From contig NC_054701.1 of assembly GCF_016097555.1 (NCBI RefSeq), positions 1,960,091-2,024,090 of the forward strand: DNA of 64,000 bases. Direction: 5' to 3'. Shown here piece after piece: positions 7,250 to 57,633 of this stretch (the stretch's first letter is position 1; every line of letters starts with the position of its first letter). This stretch comes from Gigantopelta aegis. Its lineage: Eukaryota; Mollusca; Gastropoda; Neomphalida; Peltospiridae. The position numbers were made by a program, and so were the translations under genes. The notes beneath the pieces were generated by a model. The model did no database searches. It had not been told where the DNA came from and was given only the letters and a program-made list of their open reading frames with translations.

Positions 7250-7461
7250 TTATAAACGAGCTGGACGGACTGGCGAAGGGGAGCCGCGAGGGACAGTACG
7301 ACAGCCCGGACCACGCGTGGATGGTGAAGCAGTGTGCCAAGCAAGCAGTCGCCTTCCTCGAGGCCGAGTTCGAAAAGAAAAACTCACATCTCAGAGCTCA
7401 GACGTCGAAAGGGTCAACACTCGAAACCATTGCCTTCCGCAGCGAGGAGACCAGCAAGAGT
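7250..7461 (+). CDS. SMG6: SMG6 exon C: middle of the PIN domain, ends inside a minisatellite
   Basis: The exon follows TGTTTCCAG. With one base from exon B it reads V-INELDGLAKGSREG, the conserved VINELDGLAKG motif of SMG6. It continues through HAWMVKQCAKQAVAFLE and LRAQTSKGSTLETIAFRSEE to SKS. Human SMG6 has similar LRALTSRG and SIAFRSED stretches. The donor AGT followed by GTGAGT (7462-7467) is strong and leaves phase 0, which joins cleanly to GNNDD in exon D. The final 11 exon bases (CCAGCAAGAGT) and the donor are the first copy of a 54-bp minisatellite that runs on to 9834, so dozens of equivalent donors lie downstream. Confidence 0.95.
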
Positions 7462-9834
7462 GTGAGTATGACACAGTTCTGTTTATTATTAGTCACCCAC
7501 CGGTCCAGCAAGAGTGTGAGTATGACACAGTTCTGTTTATTATTAGTCACCCACCGGTCCACCAAGAGTGTGAGTATGATACAGTTCTGTTTATTATTAG
7601 TCACCCACCGGTCCAGCAAGAGTGTGAGTATGACACAGTTCTGTTTATTATTAGTCACCCACCGGTCCAGCAAGAGTGTGAGTATGACACAGTTCTGTTT
7701 ATTATTAGTCACCCACCGGTCCAGCAAGAGTGTGAGTATGACACAGTTCTGTTTATTATTAGTCACCCACCGGTCCAGCAAGAGTGTGAGTATGACACAG
7801 TTCTGTTTATTATTAGTCACCCACCGGTCCAGCAAGAGTGTGAGTATGGCACAGTTCTGTTTATTATTAGTCACCCACCGGTCCACCAAGAGTGTGAGTA
7901 TGACACAGTTCTGTTTATTATTATTCACCACATGGTCCAGCAAGAGTGTGAGTATGACACAGTTCTGTTTATTATTAGTCAACCACCAGTCCAGCAAGAG
8001 TGTGAGTATGACACAGTTCTGTTTATTATTAGTCACCCACCGGTCCACCAAGAGTGTGAGTATGACACAGTTCTGTTTATTATTATTCACCACATGATCC
8101 AGCAAGAGTGTGAGTATGACACAGTTCTGTTTATTATTATTCACCACATGGTCCAGCAAGAGTGTGAGTATGACACAGTTCTGTTTATTATTAGTCACCC
8201 ACCGGTCCAGCAAGAGTGTGTGTATGACAGAATTCTGTTTATTATTAGTCACCTACCAGTCCACCAAGAGTGTGAGTATGACACAGTTCTGTTTATTATT
8301 AGTCACCCACCGGTCCACCAAGAGTGTGAGTATGACACAGTTCTGCAAGAGTGTGAGTATGACACAGTTCTGTTTATTATTAGTCACCCACCGGTCCAGC
8401 AAGAGTGTGAGTATGACACAGTTCTGTTTATTATTAGTCACCCACCGGTCCAGCAAGAGTGTGTGTATGACAGAATTCTGTTTATTATTAGTCACCCACC
8501 GGTCCACCAAGAGTGAGTATGACACAGTTCTGTTTATTATTAGTCACCCACCGGTCCACCAAGAGTGTGAGTATGACACAGTTCTGTTTATTATTAGTCA
8601 CCCACCGGTCCAGCAAGAGTGTGAGTATGACACAGTTCTGTTTATTATTAGTCACCCACCGGTCCACCAAGAGTGTGAGTATGATACAGTTCTGTTTATT
8701 ATTAGTCACCCACCGGTCCAGCAAGAGTGTGAGTATGACACAGTTCTGTTTATTATTAGTCACCCACCGGTCCAGCAAGAGTGTGAGTATGACACAGTTC
8801 TGTTTATTATTAGTCACCCACCGGTCCAGCAAGAGTGTGAGTATGACACAGTTGTGTTTATTATTAGTCACCCACCGGTCCAGCAAGAGTGTGAGTATGA
8901 CACAGTTCTGTTTATTATTAGTCACCCACCGGTCCAGCAAGAGTGTGAGTATGGCACAGTTCTGTTTATTATTAGTCACCCACCGGTCCACCAAGAGTGT
9001 GAGTATGACACAGTTCTGTTTATTATTATTCACCACATGGTCCAGCAAGAGTGTGAGTATGACACAGTTCTGTTTATTATTAGTCAACCACCAGTCCAGC
9101 AAGAGTGTGAGTATGACACAGTTCTGTTTATTATTAGTCACCCACCGGTCCACCAAGAGTGTGAGTATGACACAGTTCTGTTTATTATTATTCACCACAT
9201 GATCCAGCAAGAGTGTGAGTATGACACAGTTCTGTTTATTATTATTCACCACATGGTCCAGCAAGAGTGTGAGTATGACACAGTTCTGTTTATTATTAGT
9301 CACCCACCGGTCCAGCAAGAGTGTGTGTATGACAGAATTCTGTTTATTATTAGTCACCTACCAGTCCACCAAGAGTGTGAGTATGACACAGTTCTGTTTA
9401 TTATTAGTCACCCACCGGTCCACCAAGAGTGTGAGTATGACACAGTTCTGCAAGAGTGTGAGTATGACACAGTTCTGTTTATTATTAGTCACCCACCGGT
9501 CCAGCAAGAGTGTGAGTATGACACAGTTCTGTTTATTATTAGTCACCCACCGGTCCAGCAAGAGTGTGTGTATGACAGAATTCTGTTTATTATTAGTCAC
9601 CCACCGGTCCACCAAGAGTGTGAGTATGACACAGTTCTGTTTATTATTAGTCACCCACCGGTCCACCAAGAGTGTGAGTATGACACAGTTCTGTTTATTA
9701 TTAGTCACCCACCGGTCCAGCAAGAGTGTGAGTATGACACAGTTCTGTTTATTATTAGTCACCCACCGGTCCACCAAGAGTGTGAGTATGACACAGTTCT
9801 GTTTATTATTAGTCACCCACCGGTCCAGCAAGAG
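7451..9834. repeat. Splice-donor minisatellite, 54 bp x about 44, seeded at SMG6 exon C
   Basis: Each unit carries CCAGCAAGAGT then GTGAGTATGACACAG, then a TTATTATTAGTCACCCACCG part. This is the last 11 bases of exon C, its 5' splice site and 43 intron bases. Nearly all units keep GTGAGT; a few have GTGTGT, and near 8511 one has lost two bases. As 54 is a multiple of three and the unit has no stop in the exon frame, that frame stays open from exon C to 8097 through about 12 units, adding VSMTQFCLLLVTHRSSKS per unit. Rare variants recur about 1105 bp apart (GATACAG near 7579 and 8683; GTGTGTATGACAG near 8218 and 9323), so half of the array is a block duplication. Confidence 0.97.
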
Positions 9835-10793
9835 GAGACTGTAGATTTGTCTCCATCTGTCTGTCCATTCATCTATTTGTCCGTCTGTCCTACATACAGC
9901 TTTCCTAACTTTTTCCCCCAAGTGCCTCGAGATATTGAGACTGAAATTTTATTTATAGCTTTATCATGTAGAGTTACAGATCAATTTTATGTTTCATGGG
10001 AATTTCTTCAAAGCCATTTTTAACAGTTGTGGCAGATCAAGTTTGTCTTTTATGGAAATTTAGTCAAGGGCCATAACTGTCAAACATGTAATTGATCCAT
10101 TATGAGTTGTGGCTCTTGAAGTTAGGCGATATGAAATATGTGAGGTCTAGTAGGGGACATGTTTGGTTTGTCAGCACTCTCAGCATGCTTCTTGTTGTAT
10201 CACCTCCAAAATATGTACATTATGTCTTGTGTCAAGTGTTTTGAATACCAACCAAAAAATAATGGAACTCTTAAAGAGACCGTTCGGAGTTAGCAGCCAT
10301 TGCAAGATGTCTGCGATTAACAAAGTCTTTTTGGTGACTAAAAATATGTCATAAATACATTCTCTTGCTTAGAATACCTGTTTATCCAGTGTGTTTGTGG
10401 TTGTGTGCTACTATTTGTAGCAATCAGTGTTCATTTTACTTTGTAATACATATTTTTTCATACATGCAAAATGACTGGAAGGTAAAATCTGGTTTGGGCT
10501 ACTAGAAAGATTACGACATCAACAAACATGTTTTTCATACAGATACAGATACTCTAAACAGGCAGTTATCTCTAATCTGTCATTTTAGTCATCAAAACGG
10601 CTGTTAGTCACAAACATCTGACAATGGCAGCAAACTTTAAACACTGATAGAAATGTTGCAGTGAGTGTGAGCAATAATAAATTGCTATTTATATCAATTT
10701 GTTGACTATCAGTACGATACTATCTGTCATGTTTATTTACTTGGTAAAAATATTAAATTATTGAATATAATTCTGTTTTTTTCTTTCTTTCAG
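9835..10793. other. SMG6 intron, downstream of the donor array
   Basis: A degenerate CTGTC-rich stretch at 9845-9900, then AT-rich intron with no recognisable element. It ends in a long pyrimidine tract and CAG at 10791-10793. Confidence 0.7.
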
Positions 10794-10875
10794 GGCAATA
10801 ATGATGACCTTATTTTATCATGCTGTACACACTATTGCAAGGATAAAGCAAACGTTTACATGAACAGGAAGAAAG
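10794..10875 (+). CDS. SMG6: SMG6 exon D: second catalytic Asp (GNNDDLIL)
   Basis: The exon follows TTTCTTTCTTTCAG and ends AAAG before GTAATC. It encodes GNNDDLILSCCTHYCKDKAN and then VYMNRKK. GNNDDLILSCC.HYCKDKA is nearly identical to human SMG6, where the second Asp is D1353, the residue whose loss kills endonuclease activity; here its codon is 10806-10808. Phase 1 out. Confidence 0.96.
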
Positions 10876-11324
10876 GTAATCTTAACATGGCAATACCATT
10901 TGATGTACTATGGGTATCTAAAGTAAGACAAATCAGTACAACATTTAATTGTTTATGCCCCCCACTTCTAGTTTTTAGTTTAGAACTTGGAATCCATAAA
11001 AATAAAATTTATTTTGTACTCTTCTGTTCGTCCATTGAAGGAACAGCTTGCATAATTTTGAAATCTGGTATAATTTTTAAGTATATTTAAGACAGTTATT
11101 AATTATTTTGATAATTATTTCAGTCTGTGTTTATAAGAGAATGGATTTTTAACTCATCTTGTAATAAAAAATCTATGAATTTCACTGATGTCTTGGATTT
11201 CTTTAAACCCTATTAAAGTTAAATACTCTATTTTTTAATGATTTGCAGCAAGTTGGTTTTTTGTACAAGTAAAATATAGTTTGTTTGGTACTGGAGAAGC
11301 ATGTTTTTCATTAATTTTATCCAG
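10876..11324. other. SMG6 last intron
   Basis: A 449-base AT-rich intron from GTAATC to TTTTATCCAG. I see no repeat or other feature in it. Confidence 0.85.
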
Positions 11325-11455
11325 ACACTCCGGTCCGCCTGTACCGTGACGTGGTCCTGCTGACTGACGATCGCAACCTGCGCCTGAAGGCTCTGTCGGT
11401 GAACGTGCCCGTCAAGGATATCCCATCATTCATGCGCTGGAGCAAGGTCACGTGA
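11325..11455 (+). CDS. SMG6: SMG6 exon E: C-terminal PIN segment and stop
   Basis: Completes a split Asp codon, then reads TPVRLYRDVVLLTDDRNLRL and KALSVNVPVKDIPSFMRW, ending SKVT and TGA (11453-11455). VVLLTDDRNLR.KAL..NVPV.DIP.F..W is the conserved end of SMG6. The first Asp of LLTDD (codon 11366-11368) is the third catalytic acid, human D1392. All three catalytic Asp residues are therefore present. This exon is markedly GC-rich against its AT-rich flanks. Confidence 0.96.
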
Positions 11456-11689
11456 GGCCAGTCCCACGCACGTCGAGACAAGCAGTGAAGTGCAACCAGC
11501 CGAGTGCCACTGGCCAGTCACACGGTCACCAACGCCCTGTGTTATCGCTTGACCCCCCCGAGAACCGTTCCTGCGAACCTTTGTGCTTACTAGTTTAGAA
11601 TGAAACGCAAAACCCGAGCTGTGAGAGAACCCTCGTCACAGAGAGACGTGATGGCTTAACAGAGATGTCTGCCCAAGGTGATGGTGGTC

Positions 11690-11800
11690 TTGTGATCTAG
11701 TTCCTGTAATCTAGTTCCTGTGGTCTACTTCCTGTGATCTAGTTCCTGTGGTCTAGTTCCTGTGATCTAGTTCCTGCGATCTAGTTCCTGTGGTCTAGAT
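11690..11800. repeat. Short tandem repeat, 15-16 bp x about 7
   Basis: Degenerate copies of TGATCTAGTTCCTG alternating GTGATC, GTGGTC, GTAATC and GCGATC, inside the probable SMG6 3' UTR. Confidence 0.9.
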
Positions 11801-21948: not shown

Positions 21949-21961
21949 TTATCTGTACTGA

Positions 21962-22401
21962 GGGGCGAGAAGTACCCCAGTGGTAAAGCACTTGCTTAAT
22001 GCATGTTCGGTTTGGGATCGATCCATTAGGCTATTAGCAAGTGCACCACGACTAGTGCATTAAAGGCTGTGGTATGTGCTATCCTGTCTGGGATGGTGCA
22101 TATAAAAGATCCCTTGCTGCTAATTGAAAAGAGTAGCCCATGAAGTAGGGACAGTGGGTTTCCTCCCTCAATCCAGCCAGTGCACCACGACTGGTACATC
22201 AAAGGCTGTGGTATGTGCTATCCTGTCTATGGGATGGTGCATATAAAAGATCCCTTGCTGCTAATCCAAAAGAGTAGCCCACGAAGTGGTGACAGCAGGT
22301 TTCCTCCCTCAATATCCGTGTGATCTTTAACCATATGTCTGATGACATATAACCATAAATAAAATGTGTTGAGTGCGTCGTTAAATAAAACATTTCCTTC
22401 C
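21962..22401 (+). mobile_element. tRNA-headed SINE (head 1, tail 1) with internal duplication and clear TSD
   Basis: The 5' end AAGTACCCCAGTGGTAAAGC is a tRNA-like A box region and GGTTTGGGATCGATCC a B box. The body CACCACGACTGGTACATCAA is present twice (about 22046-22178 and 22187-22312). The tail is CATATGTCTGATGACATATA then AAATAAAATGTGTTGAGTGC and GTCGTTAAATAAAACATTTC. It is flanked by TTATCTGTACTGA at 21949-21961 and 22402-22414, a 13-bp target duplication that proves recent retroposition on the + strand. Confidence 0.9.
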
Positions 22402-23515: not shown

Positions 23516-23788
23516 ATGAGCTTCACAACTTCTGTTTACCTGTTCGCTATTGGTGCTATTTGTGGATCAGTCTTGATACTGAGACGGGAGGTTGGTTTTG
23601 TCTACAAGAATGGAAAGCCAGAAGCTGAGATGAAAATTGATTTGTTCGTCGATCTGTTTTGTCCCAAAAGCAAGGCTTTGTTCTCTAGACTGATGGAGGT
23701 GGTGGACGGTTACCGCGATGACCAGATACGGCTGAAGACCCACCTGGTACCGTTACCATACCACGCATTCTCGTTCATGGCCAGCAAG
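23516..23788 (+). CDS. Thioredoxin/DsbA-fold protein, exon 1
   Basis: First coding exon of a four-exon gene (23516-23788, 27506-27630, 28063-28181, 32401-32513) that joins in phase to 209 residues. The start is the first ATG of the open frame. Residues 3-22 (FTTSVYLFAIGAICGSVLIL) form a hydrophobic signal or anchor. Then come a strand and active-site position, IDLFVDLFCPKSKALF, where the usual CxxC is CPKS, so only the first Cys is kept. RLKTHLVPLPYHAFSFMASK resembles the DsbA-like order after the active site. The family is inferred from this layout and a cis-Pro motif in exon 4. It probably sits in the ER or secretory pathway. Substrate unknown. Donor AAG before GTACAT. Confidence 0.75.
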
Positions 23789-23831
23789 GTACATCAAACA
23801 CATTCCTGGGTCTGGTTGGTACACGCTTAGC

Positions 23832-26652
23832 AGGTGGTTGTAGAATACTACCGGGGACATGGGATGTAGGTTTAGTTGTAGAATATCACTGTGGACATGG
23901 GATGAAGGTTTAGTTGTAGAATATCACTGGGGACATGGGGTGAAGGTTTAGTTGTAGAATATCACTGGGGACATGGGAGGTAGGTTTAGTTGTAGAATAT
24001 CACTGGGGACATGGGATGTAGGTTTAGTTGTAGAATATCACTGTGTACATGGGGGTGAAGGTTTAGTTGTAGAATATCAATGGGGACGTGGGATGAAGGT
24101 TTAGTTGTATAATATCACCGGGGACATGGGATGTAGGTTTAGTTGTAGAATATCAATGGGGACGTGGGATGAAGGTTTAGTTGTATAATATCACCGGGGA
24201 CATGGGATGTAGGTTTAGTTGTAGAATATCACTGGGGACATGGGATGTAGGTTTAGTTGTAGAATATCGCTGGTGATATGGGGTGAAGGTTTAGTTGCAG
24301 AATATCACTGGGGACGTGAGATGAAGGTTTAGTTGTAGAATATCACTGGTGACATGGGGTGAAGGTTTAGTTGTAGAATATCGCCGGGGACATGGGATGT
24401 AGGTTTAGTTGTAGAATATCACTGTGGACATGGGATGTAGGTTTAGTTGTAGAATATCACTGTGGACATGGGATGTAGGTTTAGTTGTAGAATATCGCCG
24501 GGGACATGGGATGTAAGTTTAGTTGTATAATATCACTGGGAACATGGGATGTAGGTTTAGTTGTAGAATATCACTGTGGACATGGGATGTAGGTTTAATT
24601 GTATAATATCACTGGGGACATGGGATGTAGGTTTAGTAGAATATTGTTGGGGACATGAGATGGAGGTTTTGTTGAATATCACTGGGGACATGGGAAGTAG
24701 GTTTAGTTGTAGCATATCACTGGGGACAAGGGATGGATGGATTTTGTTGAACATCACTGGGGACATGGGAAGTAGATTTAGTTGTAGAATATCACTGAAG
24801 ATGTGGAATGAAGGTTTAGTTGTAGAATATCACTGGGGACATGGGGTGAAGGTTTAGTTGTAGCACATCACTGGGGACATGGGATGGAGGATTTTGTTGA
24901 ATATCACTGGGGACATGGGAAGTAGGTTTAGTTGTAGAATATCACTGGGACATGGGATGGAGGTTTTGTAGAATATCACTGGGGACATGGGATGGAGGTT
25001 TAGTAAAATATCACTGGGGACATGTGATGGAGGTTTAATAGAATATCACTGGGGACATGAGATGGAGGTTTAGTAGAATACCACTGGGGACATGGGATGG
25101 AGGTTTTTGTACAATATCACTGGGGACATGGGATGGAGGTTTAGTAGAATATCACTGGGGACATGAGATGGAGGTTTTTGTAGAATATCACTAGGGACAT
25201 GAGATGGAGGTTTAGTAAAATATCACTGGGGACATGAGATGGAGGTTTTGTAGAATATCACTGTGGACATGGGATGGAGGGTTTGTAGAATATCACTGGG
25301 GACATGAGATGGAGGTTTTGTAGAATATCACGGGGGACATGGGATGGAGGTTTTTGTAGAATATCACTGGGGACATGGGATGGAGGTTTTGTAGAATATC
25401 ACTGGGGACATGGGATGGAGGTTTTTGTAGAATATCACTAGGGACATGAGATGGAGGTTTTGTACAATATCACTGGGGACATGGGATGGAGGTTTAGTAA
25501 AATATCACTGGGGACATGAGATGGAGGTTTTGTAGAATATCACTGTGGACATGGGATGGAGGGTTTGTAGAATATCACTGGGGACATGAGATGGAGGTTT
25601 TGTAGAATATCACGGGGGACATGGGATGGAGGTTTTTGTAGAATATCACTGGGGACATGGGATGGAGGTTTTGTAGAATATCACTGGGGACATGGGATGG
25701 AGGTTTTTGTAGAATATCACTAGGGACATGAGATGGAGGTTTTGTACAATATCACTGGGGACATGGGATGGAGGTTTTGTAGAATATCACTGGGGACATG
25801 AGATGGAGGTTTTGTAGAATATCACTGGGGACATGAGATTGAGGTTTTTGTAGAATATCACGGGGGACATGGGATGGAGGTTTAGTAAAATATCACTGGG
25901 GACATGAGATGGAGGTTTTGTAGAATATCACTGTGGACATGGGATGGAGGGTTTGTAGAATATCACTGGGGACATGAGATGGAGGTTTTGTAGAATATCA
26001 CTGGGGACATGGGATGGAGGTTTTTGTAGCATATCACTGGAGACATATGGAGGTTTTGTAGAATATCACTAGGGACATGAGATGGAGGTTTAGTAGAATA
26101 TCACTGGGTACATGAGATGGAGGTTTTGTAGAATATCACTGGGGACATGGGATGGAGGTTTTTGTAGCATATCACTGGAGACATATGGAGGTTTTGTAGA
26201 ATATCACTAGGGACATGAGATGGAGGTTTAGTAGAATATCACTGGGTACATGAGATGGAGGTTTTGTAGAATATCACTGGGGACATGGGATGGAGGTTTT
26301 GTAGAATATCACTGGGACATGAGATGGAGGTTTTGTAGAATATCATTAGGGACATGAGATGGAGGTTTTGTAGAATATCACTGGGGACATGAGATGGAGA
26401 TTTTGTAGAATATCACTGGGGACATGGGATGGAGGTTTTGTAGAATATCACTGGGGACATGGGATGGAGGTTTTTGTAGAATATCACTATGGATATGGGA
26501 TGGAGGTTTAGTAGAATATCACTGGGGACATGGGATGGAGGTTTAGTAGAATATCACTGCGGACATGGGATGGAGGTTTAGTAGAATATCACTGGGGACA
26601 TGGGATGGAGGTTTAGTAGAATATCACTGCGGACATGAGATGGAGGTTTAAT
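23832..26652. repeat. Minisatellite, 35-38 bp unit, about 75 copies (intron 1)
   Basis: Two subfamilies in succession. The early 38-bp form has GGTTTAGTTGTAGAATATCA (about 23832-24600); the later 35-bp form has GGAGGTTTTGTAGAATATCA. Both carry CTGGGGACATGGGATG. A block of about 260 bp is repeated (for example around 25250-25440 and 25540-25730). It starts 44 bases after the donor of exon 1 and copies no exon sequence. Confidence 0.96.
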
Positions 26653-26692
26653 GATATCCAATGTAGCCAGTGTTTATGATATCCAATGTAGC

Positions 26693-27510
26693 CAGTTGTT
26701 ACAAATAATCTGTAGTTTAGTTAACCAATTGCTGCTCTCATTCACAGACTGTGGTTACAAATAATCTGTAGTTTAGTTAACCAATCGCTGCTTTCATTCA
26801 CAGACTGTGGTTACAAATAATCTGTAGTTTAATTAACCAGTCGCTGCTCTCCTTCACACTGGTTACAAATAATCTGTAGTTAACCAATCGCTGCTCTCCT
26901 TCACAGACTGTGGTTACAAATAATCTGTAGTTTAGTTAGCAATCACTGCTCTCCTTCAGACTGTGGTTACAAATAATCTGTAGTTTAGTTAACCAATCGC
27001 AGCTCTCCTTCACATACTGTGGTTACAAATAATCTGTAGTTAACCAATCGCTGCTCTCCTTCAGACTGTGGTTACAAATAATCTGTAGTTTAGTTAACCA
27101 GTCGCAGCTCTCCTTCACATACTGTGGTTACAAATAATCTGTAGTTTAGTTAACCAATCGCTGCTCTCCTTCACATACTGTGGTTACAAATAATCTGTAG
27201 TTTAGTTAACCAATCGCAGCTCTCCTTCACATACTGTGGTTACAAATAATCTGTAGTTAACCAATCGCTGCTCTCCTTCAGACTGTGGTTACAAATAATC
27301 TGTAGTTTAGTTAACCAATCGCTGCTCTCCTTCACATACTGTGGTTACAAATAATCTGTAGTTTAGTTAACCAGTCGCAGCTCTCCTTCACATACTGTGG
27401 TTACAAATAATCTGTAGTTTAGTTAACCAATCGCTGCTCTCCGTCACATACTGTGGTTACAAATAATATGTAGTTTAGTTAACCAATCGCTGCTCTCCTT
27501 CACAGACTGT
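26693..27510. repeat. Splice-acceptor minisatellite, about 56 bp x 15, seeded at exon 2 acceptor
   Basis: Each unit carries GGTTACAAATAATCTGTAGT, TTAGTTAACCAATCGC and TGCTCTCCTTCACAG then ACTGT. The last 26 intron bases and the first five exon bases (ACTGT) of exon 2 are the repeated part. Many inner copies read CACATACTG or TTCAGACTG where the true site reads CACAGACTG, so the AG is lost or shifted in about half. The copy at 27501-27510 is the functional acceptor. Confidence 0.93.
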
Positions 27511-27630
27511 ACACTCCGTGTCCACACTGACCAGGGACCAACAAACGTATAACTGGATGGCAGCCATCTTTTCAAACATGTCACTGTTTAGAGAGAATGC
27601 GCATTCCAAGACACAACACGATGTTATGAC
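27506..27630 (+). CDS. Thioredoxin/DsbA-fold protein, exon 2
   Basis: The exon follows TCTCCTTCACAG. It encodes TVHSVSTLTRDQQTYNWMAA, then IFSNMSLFRENAHSKTQHDV and MT, a helical segment as expected for the insert domain of DsbA-like proteins. It ends AC before GTAAGA, phase 2. The acceptor is the last copy of a tandem array; an inner copy used instead would add TVVTNNL and then a stop. Confidence 0.8.
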
Positions 27631-28062
27631 GTAAGACTCCTACCTGCATTTTAATTTCTCTAACCGATGACACAGCTATAATTTTTTTTACATGACTTGT
27701 ACAAACTTAAAACATAATAACCAATAATATAAATAATAAAATACCGTAAGCCATTCCAGCTGTTTACTATTAATTTAAAATTAAACATTACTTATCTTTT
27801 GATTTAATTATCAATTTTGGAAAAATCCAATGTGTTTCTGGGTGTAATTTTGTTTGTAGCAGTTTCAAACACATCTGGAAAAAGTACATACTTTGGAAAG
27901 TCCTAGACACTTGACATTTAATGTCCGTCGTACAATATTGGTTAAAACCTGAAGAATCTTGCTTAGAATATCCAATTCTGTACCAAATGTATGTTCTTTG
28001 TTGTCTTGACCGTTATAGAAACTCAAGACTGCAAATGGAAGACATATAACTGTTTGTTTCAG
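27631..28062. other. Intron 2 of the thioredoxin-like gene
   Basis: A 432-base AT-rich intron from GTAAGA to TTTGTTTCAG, the only intron of this gene without a minisatellite. Confidence 0.85.
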
Positions 28063-28181
28063 GCAATTCACGGATATGGTTGAGACATTCAAAGTCGACA
28101 AGGACGACTTCACACAACTGTGTTGTTCCGATTTACATGTTGAAGATGACACAAGAGTTGGCTGGAAATATTCGTGTTCAC
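28063..28181 (+). CDS. Thioredoxin/DsbA-fold protein, exon 3
   Basis: Completes a Thr codon, then reads QFTDMVETFKVDKDDFTQLC, CSDLHVEDDTRVGWKYSCS and the first base of Arg. Donor C before GTGAGT. It looks like the end of the helical region before the return to the thioredoxin core. The Cys-rich pieces (LCCSD, YSCS) could form structural disulfides; this is speculation. Confidence 0.8.
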
Positions 28182-29058
28182 GTGAGTTTTGTCAGTGAAC
28201 AAACAGAAATAGAATAAACAGAAAGACGCCGTGTGGTAGGTACTGGGCTCATGTCCCACTGCCGGGTCCAACGCAGCGTAAGTGTTTATCTTAGTCACCA
28301 CAGTGGTCTAAGTCCTTACATCAAAACAAACTAGGGCGTAACGTTTTTTTTGTTTTCTGAACGCTGGACAGCTTTCAGTGTCAATTTGCCATTGAAATGC
28401 TTTTATTCGATGACTATGAATGCATGTCAATTATGGAGAGTACATTTGCTTGAGTGTCAATAAACCTAGTGCCGTGACCTCGATTAATTTACATTTAATT
28501 TGCAAAGTTATCAAATTCTTAAAGTATGTGATCTTAAAAATATCACATACTTTGATTGCACTGAAAATGTAAGATATTACTAGTATATGATAAATACTGA
28601 TATATTTAGTGTTAGAATTTGAGGTTTCTGTCACAAAGCAGATACGAGGCTTAGCAAGGAATATTTCTAATAAACAATAAATCTTCAGGTTTTCCTTCTT
28701 TACCAACCGGCCTTGGTGGTGTCGTGGTTGAGCCATCAGACATAAGGTTGGTAGGTATTGGGTTCGCAGCCTGGTACCGGCTCCCACCTAGAGCGAGTTT
28801 TAATGACTCAATGGGTACGTGTTACACCAACTCTCTCACTAACAACTAACCCATTGTCCTGGACAGACAGCCCAGATAGCCGAGGTGTGTGCCCAGGACA
28901 GCATGCTTGAAACTTTAACTGGATATAAGCACGAACAATCAGTTGAAATTAATGAATGAAAATTCTTTACCAGTGCCAGGTAAATTTCAACACTTTAAAT
29001 TATTTATCATCTCTACCGTGTATACATTTTATGAAGTTTTGGGCATGAAAAAAATCCA
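28182..29058. other. Intron 3 of the thioredoxin-like gene, 5' part
   Basis: Mostly unique AT-rich intron, holding one SINE (28706-28962). The minisatellite starts at 29059. Confidence 0.8.
28706..28962 (+). mobile_element. tRNA-headed SINE (head 2, tail 3) with TSD
   Basis: Starts ACCGGCCTTGGTGGTGTCGT with GGTTGAGCCATCAG (A-box side) and TTGGGTTCGCAGCC (B box). It ends in a tail CTTTAACTGGATATAAGCAC then GAACAATCAGTTGAAATTAA, unlike the other SINEs here. It is flanked by TTCTTTACCA at 28696-28705 and 28963-28972, a 10-bp target duplication. Confidence 0.9.
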
Positions 29059-32000
29059 GAATATCTAGGAGCCATTACCCTGTAATAATAACATCTTAAC
29101 CTTATATGTGGGGTTTAGTCTGTTCCGTGGTTCATGAATATCTAGGAGACACTACCCTGTAATAATAACATCTTAACCTTGTAGGTGGTGTTTATTCTGT
29201 TCCGTGGTTCATGAATATCTAGGAGCCACTAACTACGCTGTGATAATAACATCTTAACCTTATAGGTGGTGTTTATTCTGTTCCGTGGTTCATGAATATC
29301 TAGGAGCCACTACCCTGTAATAATAACATCTTAACCTTATAGGTGGGGTTTATTCTGTTCCGTGGTTCATGAATATCTAGGAGACACTACCCTGTAATAA
29401 TAACATCTTAACCTTATAGGTGGGGTTTATTCTGTTCCGTGGTTCATGAATATCTAGGAGACACTACCCTGTAATAATAACATCTTAACCGTGTAGGTGG
29501 TGTTTATTCTGTTCCGTGGTTCATGAATATCTAGGAGCCACTAACTACGCTGTGATAATAACATCTTAACCTTATAGGTGGTGTTTATTCTGTTCCGTGG
29601 TTCATGAATATCTAGGAGACACTACCCTGTAATAATAACATCTTAACCTTATAGGTGGGGTTTATTCTGTTCCGTGGTTCATGAATATCTAGGAGACACT
29701 ACCCTGTAATAATAACATCTTAACCTTATAGGTGGGGTTTATTCTGTTCCGTGGTTCATGAATATCTAGGAGACACTACCCTGTAATAATAACATCTTAA
29801 CCTTATAGGTGGGGTTTATTCTGTTCCGTGGTTCATGAATATCTAGGAGACACTACCCTGTAATAATAACATCTTAACTGTGTAGGTGGTGTTTATTCTG
29901 TTCCGTGGTTCATGAATATCTAGGAGCCACTAACTACCCTGTGATAATAACATCTTAACCTTGTAGGTGGTGTTTATTCTGTTCCGTGGTTCATGAACAT
30001 CTAGGAGCCACTAACTACCCTGTAATAATAACAGCTTAACCTTGTAGGTGGGGTTTATTCTGTTCCATGGTTCATGAACATCTAGGAGACACTAACTACC
30101 CTGTAATAATAACATCTTAACCTTGTAGGTGGGGTTTATTCTGTTCCATGGTTCATGAACATCTAGGAGACACTAACTACCCTGTAATAATAACATCTTA
30201 ACCTTGTAGGTGGTGTTTATTCTGTTCCGTGGTTCATGAACATCTAGGAGCCACTAACTACGCTGTGATAATAACATCTTAACCTTGTAGGTGGTGTTTA
30301 TTCTGTTCCGTGGTTCATGAACATCTAGGAGCCACTAACTACGCTGTGATAATAACATCTTAACCTTGTAGGTGGTGTTTATTCTGTTCCGTGGTTCATG
30401 AACATCTAGGAGCCACTAACTACGCTGTGATAATAACATCTTAACCTTGTAGGTGGTGTTTATTCTCTTCCGTGGTTCATGAACATCTAGGAGCCACTAA
30501 CTACCCTGTAATAATAACATCTTAACCTTGTAGGTGGGGTTTATTCTGTTCCGTGGTTCATGAACATCTAGGAGACACTAACTACCCTGTAATAATAACA
30601 TCTTAACCTTGTAGGTGGGGTTTATTCTGTTCCGTGGTTCATGAATATCTAGGAGCCACTACACTGTAATAATAACATCTTAACCTTGGAGGTGGGGTTT
30701 ATTCTGTTCCGTGGTTCATGAATATCTAGGAGACACTACCCTGTAATAACAACATCTTAACCTTGTAGGTGGGGTTTATTCTGTTCCGTGGTTCATGAAT
30801 ATCTAGGAGACACTACCCTGTCATAACATCTTAACCTTGTAGGTGGGGTTTATTCTGTTCCATGGTTCATGAATATCTAGGAGACACTACCCTGTAATAA
30901 CAACATCTTAACCTTGTAGGTGGGGTTTATTCTGTTCCATGGTTCATGAATATCTAGGAGACACTACCCTGTAATAACAACATCTTAACCTTGTAGGTGG
31001 TGTTTATTCTGTTCTGTGGTTCATGAATATCTAGGAGACACCAACTACCCTGTAATAATAACATCTTAACCTTGTAGGTGGGGTTTATTCTGTTCCATGG
31101 TTCATGAACATCTAGGAGACACTAACTACCCTGTAATAATAACATCTTAACCTTGTAGGTGGGGTTTATTCTGTTCCGTGGTTCATGAATATCTAGGAAC
31201 CACTACACTGTAATAATAACATCTTAACCTTGGAGGTGGGGTTTATTCTGTTCCGTGGTTCATGAATATCTAGGAGACACTACCCTGTAATAATAACATC
31301 TTAACCTTGTAGGTGGTGCTTATTCTGTTCCGTGGTTCATGAATATCTAGGAGACACTAACTACCCTGTAATAATAACATCTTAACCTTGTAGGTGGTGT
31401 TTATTCTGTTCCGTGGTTCATGAATATCTAGGAGACACTACGCTGTAATAATAACATCTTAACCTTGTAGGTGGTGTTTATTCTGTTCCGTGGTTCATGA
31501 ATATCTAGGAGACACTACGCTGTAATATCTTAACCTTGTAGGTGGTGTTTATTCTGTTCCGTGGTTCATGAATATCTAGGAGCCACTACACTGTAATAAT
31601 AACATCTTAACCTTGGAGGTGGGGTTTATTCTGTTCCGTGGTTCATGAATATCTAGGAGCCACTACACTGTAATAATAACATCTTAACCTTGGAGGTGGG
31701 GTTTATTCTGTTCCGTGGTTCATGAATATCTAGGAGCCACTACACTGTAATAATAACATCTTAACCTTGGAGGTGGGGTTTATTCTGTTCCGTGGTTCAT
31801 GAATATCTAGGAGACACTACCCTGTAATAATAACATCTGAACCTTGTAGGTGGTGTTTATTCTGTTCCGTGGTTCATGAATATCTAGGAGCCACTACCCT
31901 GTAATAATAACATCTTAACCTTATAGGTGGGGTTTATTCTGTTCCGTGGTTCATGAATATCTAGGAGACACTACCCTGTAATAATAACATCTTAACCTTA

Positions 32001-32429
32001 TAGGTGGGGTTTATTCTGTTCCGTGGTTCATGAATATCTAGGAGACACTACCCTGTAATAATAACATCTTAACTGTGTAGGTGGTGTTTATTCTGTTCCG
32101 TGGTTCATGAATATCTAGGAGCCACTAACTACCCTGTGATAATAACATCTTAACCTTGTAGGTGGTGTTTATTCTGTTCCGTGGTTCATGAACATCTAGG
32201 AGCCACTAACTACCCTGTAATAATAACAGCTTAACCTTGTAGGTGGGCTTTATTCTGTTCCATGGTTCATGAACATCTAGGAGACACTAACTACCCTGTA
32301 ATAATAACATCTTAACCTTGTAGGTGGTGTTTATTCTGTTCTGTGGTTCATGAATATCTAGGAGACACTACGCTGTAATAATAACATCTTAACCTTGTAG
32401 GTGGTGTTCATTCTGTTCCATGGTTCATG
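29059..32429. repeat. Splice-acceptor minisatellite, 77-81 bp x about 43, seeded at exon 4 acceptor
   Basis: Each unit carries AACATCTTAACCTTGTAG (a polypyrimidine-poor acceptor) followed by GTGGTGTTTATTCTGTTCCG and TGGTTCATGAATATCTAGGA. The part after TAG is a copy of the first 29 or so bases of exon 4, with CAT to TAT and ATAAAC to AATATC changes. In the gene frame each copy reads GVYSVPWFMNI and then stop. Acceptor variants CTTATAG, CTTGTAG and CTTGGAG recur in blocks; a multi-unit block near 29770-30060 recurs near 31980-32270. The copy at 32401 is the true exon. Confidence 0.96.
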
Positions 32430-32513
32430 ATAAACGACATGACAGTTAACGCGGAAGAATGGACCGTGCAAGACTGGAAGAAACAAATTGATAAATTACT
32501 TGGCAGTCAATAA
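32401..32513 (+). CDS. Thioredoxin/DsbA-fold protein, exon 4 and stop
   Basis: Directly follows CTTAACCTTGTAG, the last copy of the acceptor array. It completes Arg and reads GVHSVPWFMINDMTVNAEEW, then TVQDWKKQIDKLLGSQ and TAA (32511-32513). VPWFMIND is the cis-Pro loop and following strand of thioredoxin/DsbA folds, and the WKKQIDKLL helix closes the domain. This is the main evidence for the family. Confidence 0.82.
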
Positions 32514-33899: not shown

Positions 33900-34225
33900 G
33901 AAGGAAATGTTTTATTTAATGACGTACTGAACACATTTTATTTATGGTTATATGGCATCATACATATGGTCAAGGACTACACATATTGAGAGAAGAAACC
34001 CACTGTCACCACTTCATGGGCTACTCTTTTCAATTAGCAGCAAGGGATCTTTTATATGCACCTCCCACAGACAGAATAGTACATACCACAGCCTTTGTTA
34101 CACCAGTTGTGGAGCATTGGCTGGAACAAGAAATAGCCCAATGGGTCCACCGACGGGGATTGATCCTAGACCGACCACGCATCACGTGAGCGCTTTACCA
34201 CTGGGCTACATCCCGCCCCTTACAG
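33900..34225 (-). mobile_element. tRNA-headed SINE (head 1, tail 1), reverse orientation, with TSD
   Basis: On the minus strand it starts GGGGCGGGATGTAGCCCAGT then GGTAAAGCGCTCACGTGATG (A box) and GGTCTAGGATCAATCC (B box). It ends in the tail AATGTGTTCAGTACGTCATT then AAATAAAACATTTCC. It is flanked by ATGTATAG at 33892-33899 and 34226-34233. The left TSD touches the last unit of the 44-bp array, so the SINE arrived at or after array growth. Confidence 0.88.
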
Positions 34226-34233
34226 ATGTATAG

Positions 34234-40906: not shown

Positions 40907-40990
40907 CTCCATGCCATATCATGTGTCTGGCTAGCGCTGGCTGGCTGACAAATCCCTTTTTACAAACCACACATATGAAGTCTTTTTCAC
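40907..40990 (-). CDS. BTB-ZF exon 6 (finger 7), GC donor
   Basis: Reads (G)EKDFICVVCKKGFVSQPALA and RHMIWHG. It is a canonical C-x2-C-x12-H-x3-H finger, preceded by the linker HKGEKDF that spans exons 5 and 6. It ends GGAG before GCAAGT, a GC-AG intron donor with otherwise perfect consensus. Phase 2 in, phase 1 out. Confidence 0.92.
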
Positions 40991-41160
40991 CTGTCAATTA
41001 TATCAAATCGCCTTTTAGAAACCACATATGAAGTCTTTTTTACTTGTCAATATCCAATCTCTTTTTACAAACTACACATATGAAGTTTTTTTTCACCTGC
41101 CCTATTATAACAAATAAATCCATTTTTACAAACTACACATTCATATGAAATCTGTTCCCC
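40975..41160. repeat. Decayed tandem copies of the exon 6 acceptor region, about 55 bp x 4
   Basis: The true site (plus strand CCTTTTTACAAACCACACAT then ATGAAGTCTTTTTCACCTGT) is followed by three worn copies at about 41010-41050, 41065-41105 and 41120-41160. On the minus strand each keeps part of GACAG, GTGAAAAAGAC and TTCATATGTGTGG. Confidence 0.75.
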
Positions 41161-41296: not shown

Positions 41297-41370
41297 CTTT
41301 GTGTCTCTTCATGTGTTCCGTAAACCTGTACCGCTTGAATGACTCGAAACCACACATCTCACACGAAAAC
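41297..41370 (-). CDS. BTB-ZF exon 5 (finger 6), GC donor
   Basis: Completes Leu and reads FSCEMCGFESFKRYRFTEHM and KRHK, a full C-x2-C-x12-H-x3-H finger. It follows TCGTCTGCAG and ends AAAG before GCAAGT, the second GC donor in a row. Phases 2 in and 1 out agree with both neighbours. Confidence 0.92.
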
Positions 41371-44263: not shown

Positions 44264-45868
44264 TACTACTCAAAAGAATTTAAGGGTCAGACGATATTTT
44301 CGACATTATTTTCTGAATGTCAATTATATTAGCTAGACCATAATGTCACGCATGGTATTGTTCCATTTTGACGAAAGTGGGTCTAAGCAACCCATAAATG
44401 AATTAAAATCCACTGTCATTGACACTGTCGACTAGTTCTAATGGCGAAAACATGCTTACATTTGCACGTAAATTAGGGCGAAAGCGAAAGGTCTGCTAAG
44501 TGCCCATAACTTGCTTTTTCACAAAGCGCTTCATTTGCACGCTTTGCATGTGTATTCCATGTTCCCAATGCTGAGTTTCCGTATAATTGGAGCTTGCGTT
44601 CGTGTACGGTGCACACTCCAAATTCGACAATGGTACGACGTCAACTGACTATCGAAGATCGAGGAAGGGCTATTGCTTGGCTTCAGGATGGCAATACGCA
44701 AAGAAATGTTGCTCTGAGACTTGGTGTCAGTCAGAGTGTCGTTGGCCGACTGTGGCAACGGTACCAAGCAACGAATTCTGTTCGAAATCGTCCACGTTCG
44801 GGAAGACCCCGAAGCACTACAAATAGAGAGGACCGCTACATCACCAATATGGCTCTACGTCAACGCACAACCACTGCACGCCGATTACGTGACAATCTGC
44901 GGACTGCGACTGGAACTCGAGTGTCTGATCAAACCATACGCAATCGTCTGAGAGCCAATAATCTACGCTGCCGTCGCCAGGCTGTTCGACCACCACTCCT
45001 ACCACGTCACAGAACAGCCAGACGTCACTGGTGCACGCTTCATCTGCAGTGGCAACGTGTTCAGTGGGGTCGAGTGATGTTCACTGATGAGTCCAGGTTT
45101 AGTCTCCAGTTCAACGACGGTCGGGTTCGTGTCTACAGACGTCCTGGGGAGCGCTTCGCTGACGTTAACATTAGACAACGTCACCGGTTCGGTGGTGGCA
45201 GCGTCATGGTGTGGGGCGGCATCTCTATCCACCACAGGACCCCCCTCTATGTGGTGGATGGCAATCTGAATGGAATCCGCTATCTGAATGAGATTATCCG
45301 GCCGTTGGTTCTCCCAGGCCTTTAGCAGATTGGCGGCGGGGCAGTTCTGCAGGATGACAATGCCAGACCCCACCGCGCCAGGGTGGTAACGGACTTTCTC
45401 AGACAACAAGGTATCGCCAGGATGGATTGGCCAGCATATTCGCCTGACTTGGCCCCAACAGAGCACGCCTGGGACGAATTAGGCAGGAGAGTTCGGGATA
45501 ACCATGCCCCTCCGGCCAACCTTCATGATCTGGGTCAACTTCTTATGGCAGAGTGGCAGGCCATTCCCCAAGAGTTCTTCAGACGTCTGATCAACAGCAT
45601 GAGGCAACGATGTGTCGAGTGTATTCGCGCCAGGGGTGGATTCACACACTATTAAACAAATGTTCTAATGTGTAAAATCCATGTTTGACAACCTTCAACT
45701 TTGACAGCATGTCATGTGACTTTCTTATATAAAGTGACGTTTATTTGTGGTTTTTTGTAAATATGGAACAATAAATTAAATTTTTGGTGTAGTTTACATC
45801 ATCAATCTAATACTCTCTGAAACCTATTTGGTTATAAATTTTTGACCCTTAAATTCTTTTGAGTAGTA
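44264..45868 (+). mobile_element. Tc1-like DNA transposon (DD34E), near whole
   Basis: Perfect 26-bp terminal inverted repeats (TACTACTCAAAAGAATTTAA plus GGGTCA; 44264-44289 and 45843-45868) flanked by TA on both sides. Length is 1605 bp with one transposase frame. It sits in BTB-ZF intron 4, in the opposite direction to the gene. The perfect TIRs suggest recent arrival. Confidence 0.95.
44630..45655 (+). pseudogene. Tc1-like transposase with one nonsense codon
   Basis: The 341-codon frame starts MVRRQLTIEDRGRAIAWLQD. It has a helix-turn-helix (NVALRLGVSQSVVGRLWQRY), the GRPR hinge (SGRPRSTT), and the catalytic triad in VMFTDESRFS, QDDNARPHRA and SPDLAPTEHAWDE, with 34 residues between the second Asp and the Glu (DD34E). 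The length equals the family norm. One in-frame TAG at 45323-45325, in LPGL-stop-QIGGG where relatives usually have Gln, is the only break; otherwise the frame runs to TAA at 45653-45655. Confidence 0.93.
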
Positions 45869-52213: not shown

Positions 52214-53912
52214 TAGAGGGGATGATTTTCCGTTTCAGATTTTGCCACATTCCATTTCAGATTTTTGCAAATTCTGTTTTTTTTTCCGTTTTTGTGTTCA
52301 ATTAGTGTCATGTTTTATTGTTATAAACTATATACATTTGTTATATTGTTCCAGCTCTGAGCTGGTTTGCTATTGCTATTTTTTTAAATAACTGTAAAAA
52401 TAATTTTTGAAACAAACTTTAAATAAAAAAGAAGTGTATAAACCGCACCACTTGGTTCCCACCTTCATCCGTAAATAAACCGCACCTTTAAGTAAGCCGC
52501 GGTTAAAACAAAGCCACGAACTTAATTACGGTTAATTATTTTTTGTATTTAATAATAATAAAGAGATCCGTTCTCCCTTGAATTCAAACAATAAATAATT
52601 GTTGATTGTGTGGCTTTCAGTTTCATTTCATCTGATGGATTATGGTATGGGTAAGTTTCATTTATAAACAAAACACACCGTTAACAAACCCCGCTATTTT
52701 CACGAAAATATGAACAAGAACTTTGGTAATGTATTGTTCGTAATCTTACATTAGTTGCCAAAAAGTATGTATAAATAAATAAATACATGATAACATTTAC
52801 ATATGATTACAAAGCGTGAACCAAAAAAACAAAGGGGGGGGGGGGGGGGCACACATAAGAATTACTATTTTAGTACTCACTCGATTACACATGTATGTTT
52901 CTCTGTAACCTAACTAGCGTGCTGTGTGCACAAATTACATATTCAAACGAGGTCGGGTCAATCTGGATATAGGCCAGTGGTAGTGAGTGAACCGAAACTA
53001 AACACTGTTCTGTCGATCATTTAAAGTTTCGACATTATTTTATAACTTTAAAAAAATATATATTTGCCTAGAATTATATATTCAGAGCCGGTTTAAGGAT
53101 CCGCGGGGCCTGTAGCACAAATAACAGCTGGGCCCAATTTCCAAGATATATATTTTGCAACCCCCTCGGGGAGAGGGGGAAAATGTACACAATGCCTCAC
53201 CGCGGGAACCCCTGAACCGCAGGGTCTGTAGCACGTGCTACATGTGTTACAATAATAAACCGGTGAGAAAAAAAGTAAAATGCTATTTTTGTGTGCAATT
53301 TAGAAAACAATCGGTTCAGAAATAAATAACATGTAGTAAATTCCGTAGCATGAAAAAAGGCGTTCCACGTGGGACGGACTATAAATGTGAAATGTTTCCG
53401 TACAAGTTAACGAATATGCCCGAAGTTTTACGAAATTACGTTTTCTGGCAAAAGCGTTGTGTAAATTGGCTATGCTTTTGAATCGTAATAAGTATTATTG
53501 AAAAATATCGAAATTGAACGTCCTAGAAATCTTATTATATAATCAACATTCTAAAATGGTATTAATAAATGTTTATTTTTATATTTCAAGTTAAATTTCA
53601 CTATGTAAAGTTACACAGGTAAACAGTCACATGCTTTGTTGCAAGCTTACGGCAATTAAGCGTAACTTCCGAGAATTAACGGTTCTGAAAATATTTAGGC
53701 ATACAATACACTCCATGAAAGTTCGCATACCAAAACACTATGTGTATATTATCAATATTGAATCTTAAAACTACTAAAAATATTTATTATGGTGATTGAA
53801 CCAGAAATACAACTTTTGAAGGTTATTTTTTTAAAATTGCAAATTCTGTTTCAGTTACTAAATTCCGTGATTCCGTCCGTTTTTCCGTGATCGCGGAAAA
53901 TCATCCCCTCTA
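52214..53912. mobile_element. 1.7-kb TIR element (hAT-like ends) inserted in the minisatellite
   Basis: Starts TAGAGGGGATGATTTTCCG and ends CGGAAAATCATCCCCTCTA, a 19-bp perfect inverted pair. It is flanked by TAGATG at 52208-52213 and 53913-53918, which is array sequence, so removing the element with one copy of TAGATG restores a normal unit. The YARNG-like end (TAGAG) fits hAT; a 6-bp duplication fits the less common hAT groups, with Dada as an alternative. No transposase frame is visible, so it is non-autonomous. Inside is a G-run near 52835 and a nested GC-rich repeat at about 53090-53240. Confidence 0.85.
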
Positions 53913-54318
53913 TAGATGGTTATTATATTTCTTAGGTTGTATTTACTAGATGGTTATTATATTTCTTAGGTTGTATTTACTAGATGGTTATTATATTTCT
54001 AGGTTGTATTTACTAGATGGTTATTATATTTCTAGGTTGTATTTACTAGATGGTTATTATATTTCTAGGTTGTATTTACTAGATGGTTATTATACTTCTA
54101 GGTTGTATTTACTAGATGGTTATTATACTTCTAGGCTGTATTTACTAGATGGTTATTATATTTCTAGGTTGTATTTACTAGATGGTTATTATATTTCTAG
54201 GTTGTATTTACTAGATGGTTATTATATTTCTAGGTTGTATTTACTAGATGGTTATTATACTTCTAGGTTGTATTTACTAGATGGTTATTGTATTTCTTAG
54301 GTTGAATTTATTAGATGG
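53913..54318. repeat. Minisatellite, 33-34 bp, third block
   Basis: About 12 units continuing the array beyond the inserted TIR element. It ends about 180 bases before the end of exon 3. Confidence 0.95.
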
Positions 54319-54496
54319 ATATTATTCCTTTAAAACATACCATTTCATACAGTTGTGAGTTAATCCAAGTAAGATTTTTCTAAAAAAAAATTACAAATCA
54401 CAATGTCAGATGATCAAACTAATAATTTACTGTTAAAAAAATTAAAATAGTGATATTCTTGCCAAGTTAAAGGTATGAAATGAAAATGGTGCAAAC

Positions 54497-54703
54497 CTTG
54501 AGATTATAAACGGTTGAGAAAGTTTTTCCGCAGTGTGTACAGTCGAGCATGGATGGATTTATGTGAACCTTGGCATGCATGGTCAGCTCACAGGACAGTT
54601 TGAAGGATTTGCCGCACGTCTCACAAACAAACGGACGATCGTCTGAGTGGCTGGCGATGTGGATGTCTAGTCGGGCCGCCATCAGGGTTTCATAGCCACA
54701 AAC
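54497..54703 (-). CDS. BTB-ZF exon 3 (fingers 2-4)
   Basis: The exon follows TTTCACTTCCAG and reads VCGYETLMAARLDIHIASHS, then DDRPFVCETCGKSFKLSCEL, TMHAKVHINPSMLDCTHCGK and TFSTVYNLK. Its first two residues (VC) finish the CKVC knuckle of finger 2 begun in exon 2, giving exact C-x2-C-x12-H-x3-H spacing. Finger 3 is CETC...HAKVH. Finger 4 (CTHC) is completed by exon 4. It is 69 codons, phase 0 at both ends. Donor CTCAAG before GTTTGC. Confidence 0.94.
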
Positions 54704-54957
54704 CTGGAAGTGAAACATTCAACATGCAGTGAAAATAAACATCAGAAGCAAATAATATCACTGAACACAAAATGGTAAACAACTCTAATAAAATGACGGT
54801 GATCCCCAGTGTCGTGATAAACAAAGAGACGAGAAATTAATTAAAAACATGTATCATAAATTCTCACTGCACAGATGCCAGCAACAGGAAATGGGGTGAG
54901 TGCATACTGGTAACCTCTAGAGTTGGGAGGCCAAGTACAGCTTTGCTTGCAATTCAA

Positions 54958-57633
54958 CATGTGTACATTGTATGATGAGTTGGATCGTAAGGATACAAAC
55001 CTTGCACGTGTATATTGTATGACGAGTTGGATCGTAAGGATACAAACCGTACACGTGTATATTGTATGACGAGTTGGATCGTAAGGATACAAACCCTGCA
55101 CGTGTATACTGTATGACGAGTTGGGTCGTAAGGATACAAACCTTGCACATGTATATTGTATGACGAGTTGGACCGTAAGGATACAAACTTGCACATGTAT
55201 ATTGTATGACGTGTTGGATCGAAAGGATACAAACCTTGCACGTGTATATTGTACGAGTTGGGTCGTAAGGATACAAACCTTGCACATTTATATTGTATGA
55301 GTTGGATCGTAAGGATACAAACCTTACACATGTATATTGTACGACGTGTTGGATCATAAGGATACAAACCTTGCACGTGTATATTGTATGACGAGTTGGA
55401 TCGTAAGGATACAAACCTTGCACATGTATATTGTATGACGAGTTGGATCGTAAGGATACAAACCTTACATGTGTATATTTTACGTGTTGGACCGTAAGGA
55501 TACAAACCTTGCACGTGTACATTGTATGACGAGTTGGATCGTAAGGATACAAACCGTATACGTGTATATTGTACGTGTTGGACCGTAAGGATACAAACCT
55601 TACACATGTATATTGTACGACGTGTTGGATCGTAAGGATACAAACCTTGCACGTGTATATTATACGACGTGTTGGATCGTAAGGATACAAACCTTGCACG
55701 TGTATATTGTATGACGAGTTGGATCGTAAGGATACAAACCTTGCACATGTATATTGTATGACGAGTTGGATCGTAAGGATACAAACCTTACATGTGTATA
55801 TTTTACGTGTTGGACCGTAAGGATACAAACCTTGCACGTGTACATTGTATGACGAGTTGGATCGTAAGGATACAAACCTTGCACGTGTATATTATACGAC
55901 ATGTTGGATCGTAAGGATACAAACCTTGCACGTGTATATTGTATGACGAGTTGGATCGTAAGGATACAAACCTTGCACATGTATATTGTATGACGAGTTG
56001 GATCGTAAGGATACAAACCTTACATGTGTATATTTTACGTGTTGGACCGTAAGGATACAAACCTTGCACGTGTACATTGTATGACGAGTTGGACCGTAAG
56101 GATACAAACCTTGCACGTGTATATTATACGACGTGTTGGATCGTAAGGATACAAACCTTGCACGTGTATATTGTATGACGAGTTGGATCGTAAGGATACA
56201 AACCTTGCACGTGTATATTGTATGACGAGTTGGATCGTAAGGATACAAACCGTATACGTGTATATTGTACGTGTTGGACCGTAAGGATACAAACCTTGCA
56301 CGTGTATATTGTATGACGAGTTGGATCGTAAGGATACAAACCTTACACATGCATATTGTACGTGTTGGATCGTAAGGATACAAACCTTGCACATGTACAT
56401 TGTACGACGAGTTGGACCGTAAGAATACAAACCTTGCACGTGTATATTGTATGACGAGTTGGATCGTAAGGATACAAACCTTACACATGCATATTGTACA
56501 ACGTGTTGGATCGTAAGGATACAAACCTTGCACGTGTATATTGTATGACGTGTTGGATCGAAAGGATATAAACCTTGTACGTTTATATTGTATGAGTTGG
56601 ATCGTAAGCATACAAACCTTGTATGTGTATATTGTATGTGTTGAGTCGTAAGGATACAAACCTTGGACGTGTATATTGCACGACGTGTTGGGTCGTAAGG
56701 ATACAAACCTTGCACATGTATATTGTACGAGTTGGGTCGTAAGGATAGAAACCTTGCACGTGTATATTGTATGACGTGTTGGATCGTAAGGATACAAAAC
56801 GTGTACGTGTATATTGTATGACGAGTTGGGTCGTAAGGATACAAACCTTGCATGTGTATATTGTATGATGTGTTGGATCGTAAGGATACAAACATTGCAC
56901 GTGTACATTGTATGAAGAGTTTGATCATACAGATAGAAACCTTGCACGTGTATATTGTATGACGTGTTGGATCGTACAGATACAAACCTTGCACGTGTAT
57001 ATTGTATGACGAGTTGGATCGTACGGATACAAACCTTGCACGTGTATATTGTACGAAGTGTTGGATCTTACGGATACAAACCTTGCACGTGTATATTGTA
57101 TGACGAGTTGGATCGTACGGATACAAACTTTGCACGTGTATATTGTACGAAGTGTTGGATCATACGGATACAAACCTTGCACGTGTATATTGTACGAAGT
57201 GTTGGATGTTATGGATACAAACCTTGTACGAGTATATTGTATGATATGTTGGATCATAAGGATACAAACCTTAGACGTGTATATTGTATGACGTGTTAGG
57301 TTGCAAGGATACAAACCTTGCACATGTATATTGTACGAGTTGGGTCGTAAGGATACAAACCTTGCACATGTATATTGTATGACATGTTGGATCGAAAGGA
57401 TACAAACCTTGTACGTTTATATTGTATGACGTGTTGGGTCGTAAGGATACAAACCTTGCACGTGTATATTGTATGATGTGTTGGATCATAAGGATACAAA
57501 CCTTGCACGTGTATATTGTATGATGTGTTGGATCATAAGGATACAAACATTGCACGTGTATATTGTACGACGTGTTGGAGCGTAAGGATACAAACCTTGC
57601 ACGTGTATATTGTATGACGAGTTGGATCGTAAG
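54958..57633. repeat. Splice-donor minisatellite, 47 bp x about 57, seeded at BTB-ZF exon 2
   Basis: On the gene strand each unit is TCCTTACGATCCAACTCGTC, ATACAATATACACGTGCAAG and GTTTGTA. About 40 of 47 bases are the end of exon 2 and the rest is its donor (AAG before GTTTGT). The first unit in transcription order (57596-57633) is the exon end itself. Units are 41-47 bp. As 47 is not a multiple of three, each further donor changes the frame. Open frames over 300 codons run through it in several frames (YPYDPTRHTIYTCKVC...) and are repeats only. Confidence 0.96.

Follow-up and report, generated by a model that had tools for sequence, protein, structure and literature searches.

Do exon-intron junctions seed minisatellites, or do they merely tolerate the ones that arise there by chance? 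The question is raised by a stretch of 64,000 nucleotides (G000:C3:1960091-2024090, hereafter the window) from the genome of Gigantopelta aegis, a neomphaline gastropod and deep-sea vent snail. Three unrelated spliceable genes in the window, SMG6, a thioredoxin-fold gene and a BTB zinc-finger gene, carry tandem arrays whose units extend across a true boundary between exon and intron. The same anatomy was found in three stretches of a genome sample of RRM exons and in one paralogue of the zinc-finger gene. Chance founding followed by tolerance probably suffices to explain these arrays, which we regard as junction minisatellites of the type called mirages in amphioxus. The five arrays of the window were delimited with Tandem Repeats Finder (TRF) and with tables of their units:

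A1, 7451-9834, plus strand: donor array of SMG6; 54-bp unit in 45 unit rows, the unit including 11 exon bases (7451-7461) and the GTGAGT donor.
A2, 26698-27510, plus strand: acceptor array of the thioredoxin-fold gene; 56-bp unit x 15, with 5 exon bases (27506-27510).
A3, 29059-32430, plus strand: acceptor array of the thioredoxin-fold gene; 77-bp unit x 43, with 30 exon bases (32401-32430).
A4, 54961-57635, minus strand: donor array of the zinc-finger gene; 47-bp unit x 57.7, each unit combining about 40 exon bases (57596-57635) with 7-8 bases of intron.
A5, 40949-41140, minus strand: acceptor array of the zinc-finger exon 40990-40907; 53-bp unit x 3.5 with 76% matches and 42 exon bases (40949-40990).

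An earlier note on this DNA had described the first four as arrays that include a true splice site and 5 to 40 exon bases, two at donors and two at acceptors of unrelated genes. The TRF results agree with this description (11, 5, 30 and 40 exon bases). The note's count of eight intronic arrays, four of them at junctions, has to be corrected: twelve were present at a TRF score of at least 80, with a split 33-bp array counted as one, and A5 had gone unlisted. Judged by its low proportion of matches, A5 is older than the other arrays. The 14 introns with both ends in the window provide 28 junctions, 14 of them donors, and five of these junctions (two donors and three acceptors) are occupied by arrays. 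The other seven intronic arrays do not reach a junction, although five come to within 100 bp of one. In total, 46% of the window consists of tandem arrays, versus 19% of a 200-kb sample from ten contigs, at slightly different cut-offs.

The junctions were also examined by self-alignment, in which 40-base probes (30 exon and 10 intron bases) were aligned with the intron and compared with shuffles. The signal was strong at the junctions of A1, A3, A4 and A5 (z 14.6 for A5) and weak at that of A2 (z 4.6), where only 5 exon bases are common to the unit. At the remaining 23 of the 28 junctions this self-alignment revealed no degenerate hidden copies above shuffles.

The host genes were spliced by hand, and all three exon models have open frames throughout:

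SMG6/EST1A, 3' exons, plus strand: 304-444, 4658-4808, 7250-7461, 10794-10875 and 11325-11455 (stop); open spliced frame, PIN_4 match at 1.4e-24, human EST1A PIN 2dok at 8e-68.
Thioredoxin-fold gene (LOC121367367), 23516-32513, plus strand: exons 23516-23788, 27506-27630, 28063-28181 and 32401-32513; Thioredoxin_4 match at 1.3e-8.
BTB zinc-finger gene (ZBTB17-like according to NCBI), 59336-38762, minus strand: exons 59336-58260, 57912-57596, 54703-54497, 46431-46295, 41370-41297, 40990-40907, 40309-40215 and 39469-38762; domain match and open frame.

The alignment of SMG6 to human EST1A PIN 2dok runs across the A1 junction with a one-residue gap at the junction. The models of the thioredoxin-fold and zinc-finger genes are identical to deposited G. 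aegis proteins, the former to P0001 (209 aa) and the latter to P0002 (891 aa). For A1 to A4 the copy spliced in the protein models is the exon-proximal one, which bears out the earlier statement that this unit keeps the reading frame in all four arrays; in the deposited proteins, the same choice of copy is seen for A2 to A5. Two adjacent introns of the zinc-finger gene have GC-AG splice sites, at 41297/41296 (AAG/GCAAGT) and 40907/40906 (GAG/GCAAGT) on the minus strand; all other donors are GT.

The exon sequence within A4 (PYDPTRHTIYTCK) and A5 (GEKDFICVVCKKGF) encodes zinc-finger segments that align with the paralogue P0003, which identifies the exon as the source of both arrays. The exonic part of A3 falls within the Thioredoxin_4 match and includes the residues SVPWF, which we take to be a conserved segment; those of A1 and A2 are too short to tell the direction of growth. 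In A1 and A4 the exon-proximal unit equals the array consensus exactly (45 and 58 copies), and unit variants recur block-wise along A1 and A3. A block of about 1.1 kb is doubled within A1 (7559-9768) with the same series of unit variants, the ungapped identity being 88% at a shift of 1105 bp. Array endpoints were dropped as evidence of microhomology, since a partial last unit is indistinguishable from it.

We propose that such an array would be founded by a random tandem duplication of about 45-80 bp that happens to span an existing exon-intron junction, founding duplications falling across the genome without junction preference. The duplication would be tolerated because the exon-proximal complete junction, used in the protein models, should still yield the correct mRNA, while the other copies end up in the intron. 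The array would then expand and shuffle within the intron, presumably by slippage or unequal exchange, as the blocks of unit variants suggest.

The age of the introns relative to the arrays can be judged from the paralogues of the zinc-finger gene, which are clustered side by side at G000:C3:1998852-2136791. The A4 intron position is common to the two neighbouring paralogues that were looked at. In the gene of P0003 (L051) the homologous intron measures 452 bp; it contains a (GA)n run but lacks a junction array. In the second paralogue (L052, G000:C3:2067851-2070030; 2067698-2071147, minus strand) it measures 2028 bp, and its donor lies inside an array of 70 bp x 5.3. Because the paralogues share the intron and one has no junction array, the A4 intron is, on this sequence comparison, older than its arrays. 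The L052 unit is made up of 32 exon and 38 intron bases, and because its limits differ from those of A4 we infer two separate founding events at the homologous donor. A further array, of 55 bp x 21, occupies the same L052 intron.

The window was selected for its junction arrays, and a second sample was hence chosen blind to arrays. A Pfam search of the genome returned at least 86 matches to RRM exons (150 of 341 candidates scored). Of these 86, 58 were covered by the 57 stretches that were read. The 28 omitted matches comprised 14 with in-frame stops, 12 in long open frames (264-1459 aa), one at a contig edge and one probable second copy. Contigs C1-C15 carry 43 of the 57 stretches, and 14 lie on small contigs, some of them perhaps haplotigs or foreign. 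By eye, about 75 junctions were tallied in the 43 stretches (about 39 donors and 36 acceptors); they are not fully independent, as several stretches are related hnRNP-like genes and the pairs L068/L088 and L080/L084 seem to be duplicated or closely paralogous. Units shorter than 12 bp and glycine-rich coding repeats lying wholly in exons (L062, L063 and L065) were not counted as arrays. Donor-straddling arrays were present in three stretches, all among the 43, with 1/20, 2/17 and 0/20 positives in the successive batches. To judge by their peptides, the host genes are presumably SR-protein-like (L036), ENOX-like (L054) and U1A/U2B''-like (L060). The resulting rate is three in about 75 junctions, or 4% (interval 0.8-11%).

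How much of this is expected by chance depends on the background. The 200-kb sample contained 58 arrays (score at least 80, period at least 15), and the genome has roughly one minisatellite in every 2.9-5.3 kb, the figure varying with the score cut-off. This corresponds to 0.0197 expected straddles per junction, or 0.0141 at score 300; because the density is this high, some 1.4-2% of junctions would be struck without any junction preference. The three cases in the RRM sample compare with 1.06-1.48 expected (P 0.09-0.18). Of the 15 arrays that lie on a junction or no more than 100 bp from one (ten from the window, five from the RRM sample), eight straddle it versus 4.7 expected (P 0.06). A two- to threefold junction preference is possible. 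The earlier note had suggested either a process favouring junctions or tolerance. Tolerance fits the genome sample; the excess of junction arrays found there is about two- to threefold and not significant, and a preference is not demonstrated, yet recurrence in the paralogue and the pairing of donors with U1 leave room for a bias.

Several results weigh against founding by chance alone. The five straddling arrays of the window are many for a chance null: with founders evenly spread over array-collapsed introns, 1.06 are expected (P 0.002), and the genome-wide array density gives P 0.00004-0.0002. When ancestral introns are capped at 1000, 500 and 300 bp, P becomes 0.018, 0.07 and 0.23. The sampled cases are all donors, 3/39 versus 0.55-0.77 expected (P 0.02-0.04, the split being post hoc), with 0/36 at acceptors. 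From the per-junction rate, recurrence at one homologous donor, with two paralogues looked at, would be a coincidence of about 4%. Array donors also pair more strongly with U1. In this post hoc test, 11-base donor contexts were paired with the U1 5' end, with 18 sample donors taken as controls where clearly readable and the paralogue as a targeted look. Over window, sample and paralogue, the median was -8.4 kcal/mol for array donors (n=6) and -6.6 kcal/mol for the others (n=30; P 0.0012), and the two array donors of the window were the strongest of its 14. Some controls nevertheless match or exceed most array donors in U1 pairing (L031, L061 and L067), and L034 and L047 are about equal to them.

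A rival explanation is that strong 5' splice sites, through U1-pairing motifs or structures formed on transcription, promote local tandem duplication and hence repeated seeding. The proportion of window junctions with arrays (5/28), the different array at the paralogue's donor, the rank of the array donors and the share of sampled donors all speak for such a process. We nevertheless consider it rather unlikely, since the RRM sample, with donors and acceptors taken together, does not depart from chance, three of the five window arrays struck acceptors, and near-junction intronic arrays are nearly as numerous as straddling ones (7 versus 8). Strong donors may, moreover, be simply the survivors of duplication: the stronger U1 pairing could mean that strong donors seed arrays or that arrays survive at no others, and selection for tolerance could produce it. 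A junction-favouring cause is therefore possible and is not needed to account for the arrays. Tentatively, and with considerable doubt, strong 5' splice sites can be pictured as hot spots for founding duplications, or as the sole donors at which duplications survive, with several per cent of donors carrying minisatellites of exon origin that arose repeatedly, and separately in different paralogues.

The other explanations are much less probable. It is very improbable that the introns themselves were created by tandem duplication of exon sequence, as in intron gain by tandem genomic duplication (PMC4974935; PMC2891723). The accessible parts of those papers describe a local duplication over splice-like sequence, as here; the intron is new there, whereas the A4 intron is older than its array. 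The A4 intron and the next exon both start with GTTTGT, as the AGGT-duplication model predicts, and mirages have been proposed to give rise to introns (PMC3087553). However, both paralogues that were looked at have the A4 intron at the homologous site, one of them with no junction array, which contradicts this origin for A4, and the units of A1, A2, A3 and A5 contain intron bases of their own (43, 51, 47 and about 11-16). An array function, with many equal splice sites serving as a decoy bank or giving alternative in-frame products, is about as improbable. The 54-bp unit of A1 corresponds to 18 codons, so that use of a later one of its 45 donors would keep the frame until the stop at 8095, but the units of A2, A3 (77 bp), A4 and A5 are no multiple of three. 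The donor core GT is preserved in 45/45 copies of A1 and 56/58 of A4, and the donor stretch of both is within the least variable 15-17% of unit windows. The acceptor core AG is preserved in 42/43 copies of A3 but only in 7/15 of A2 and 2/4 of A5, and the acceptor stretch of these three arrays is no more conserved than other unit windows. Conservation of the splice site across copies was rejected as a sign of use, being inconsistent over the five arrays, and no uniform signature of selection emerged. Finally, the copy numbers are those of the assembly, but an assembly error that inflated them is next to negligible, since the copies differ at many positions, the arrays lie within a 96.8-Mb contig and similar arrays recur in other genes.

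Other elements were noticed in and near the window. An element of about 1.7 kb with matching inverted ends (GAGGGGATGATTTTCCG) at 52215-53912 is apparently inserted in the 33-bp array of its host intron. A Tc1/mariner-type transposase remnant (HTH_Tnp_Tc3_2, DDE_3) lies in an intron of the zinc-finger gene at 44510-45652 (plus strand). The segments 22036-22313, 33950-34230 and 61280-61600 appear by eye to be copies of one dispersed repeat resembling a short interspersed element. Among the sampled stretches, L034, L041, L042 and L065 have matches of 92-100% to unplaced segments of the window.

Tolerance of junction-spanning repeats has precedents, and the earlier view that no class of splice-site minisatellites had been described does not hold. 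According to the accessible parts of the papers cited here, repeats containing exon-intron junctions occur as mirages in amphioxus (Adh3, the globins BflGb6 and BflGb9, PGBD5 and TnC), where regular splicing is reported to be undisturbed (PMC3087553; PMC3902484). As in the snail, their tandem units include the boundary, at a donor or acceptor, and many copies retain the splice signal. Mirages have 2-7 copies in the globin genes and PGBD5, compared with 3.5 to 58 in the snail, and amphioxus is a cephalochordate whereas Gigantopelta is a mollusc. The snail arrays are assigned to this kind by their anatomy in one assembly. In humans, the 31-bp variable number tandem repeat c.1444_1467+7(16_21) of CBS consists of 24 exon and 7 intron bases in 16-21 copies (PMC2630376). 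It spans a donor and is very like A4 (about 40 + 7), though known from a single human gene, with population data. The CBS variant 844ins68 is a two-copy, 68-bp duplication of the intron 7/exon 8 junction, with splicing at the distal one of a pair of sites that the same paper calls donor sites. Duplicated human genes likewise have tandem repeats of minisatellite size at the borders of exons and introns (PMC2812944), but these are tied to new introns in recent paralogues. Our searches of the accessible literature found no case of junction minisatellites in molluscs; for earthworm metallothionein and for Conus, that literature describes intronic repeats that are not shown to include junctions.

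The class is thus already known, and the snail extends it to a mollusc with larger arrays. What had been known from a few amphioxus genes and one human gene is now joined by a mollusc and a rough genome rate (three in about 75 sampled junctions). If strong donors do act as hot spots, a repeat-rich animal genome would have exon-derived minisatellites at several per cent of its donors. Annotated genomes rich in minisatellites can tell whether splice junctions promote the founding of repeats or only tolerate it, and introns with dozens of near-identical splice sites offer material for studying how the splicing machinery chooses one copy.

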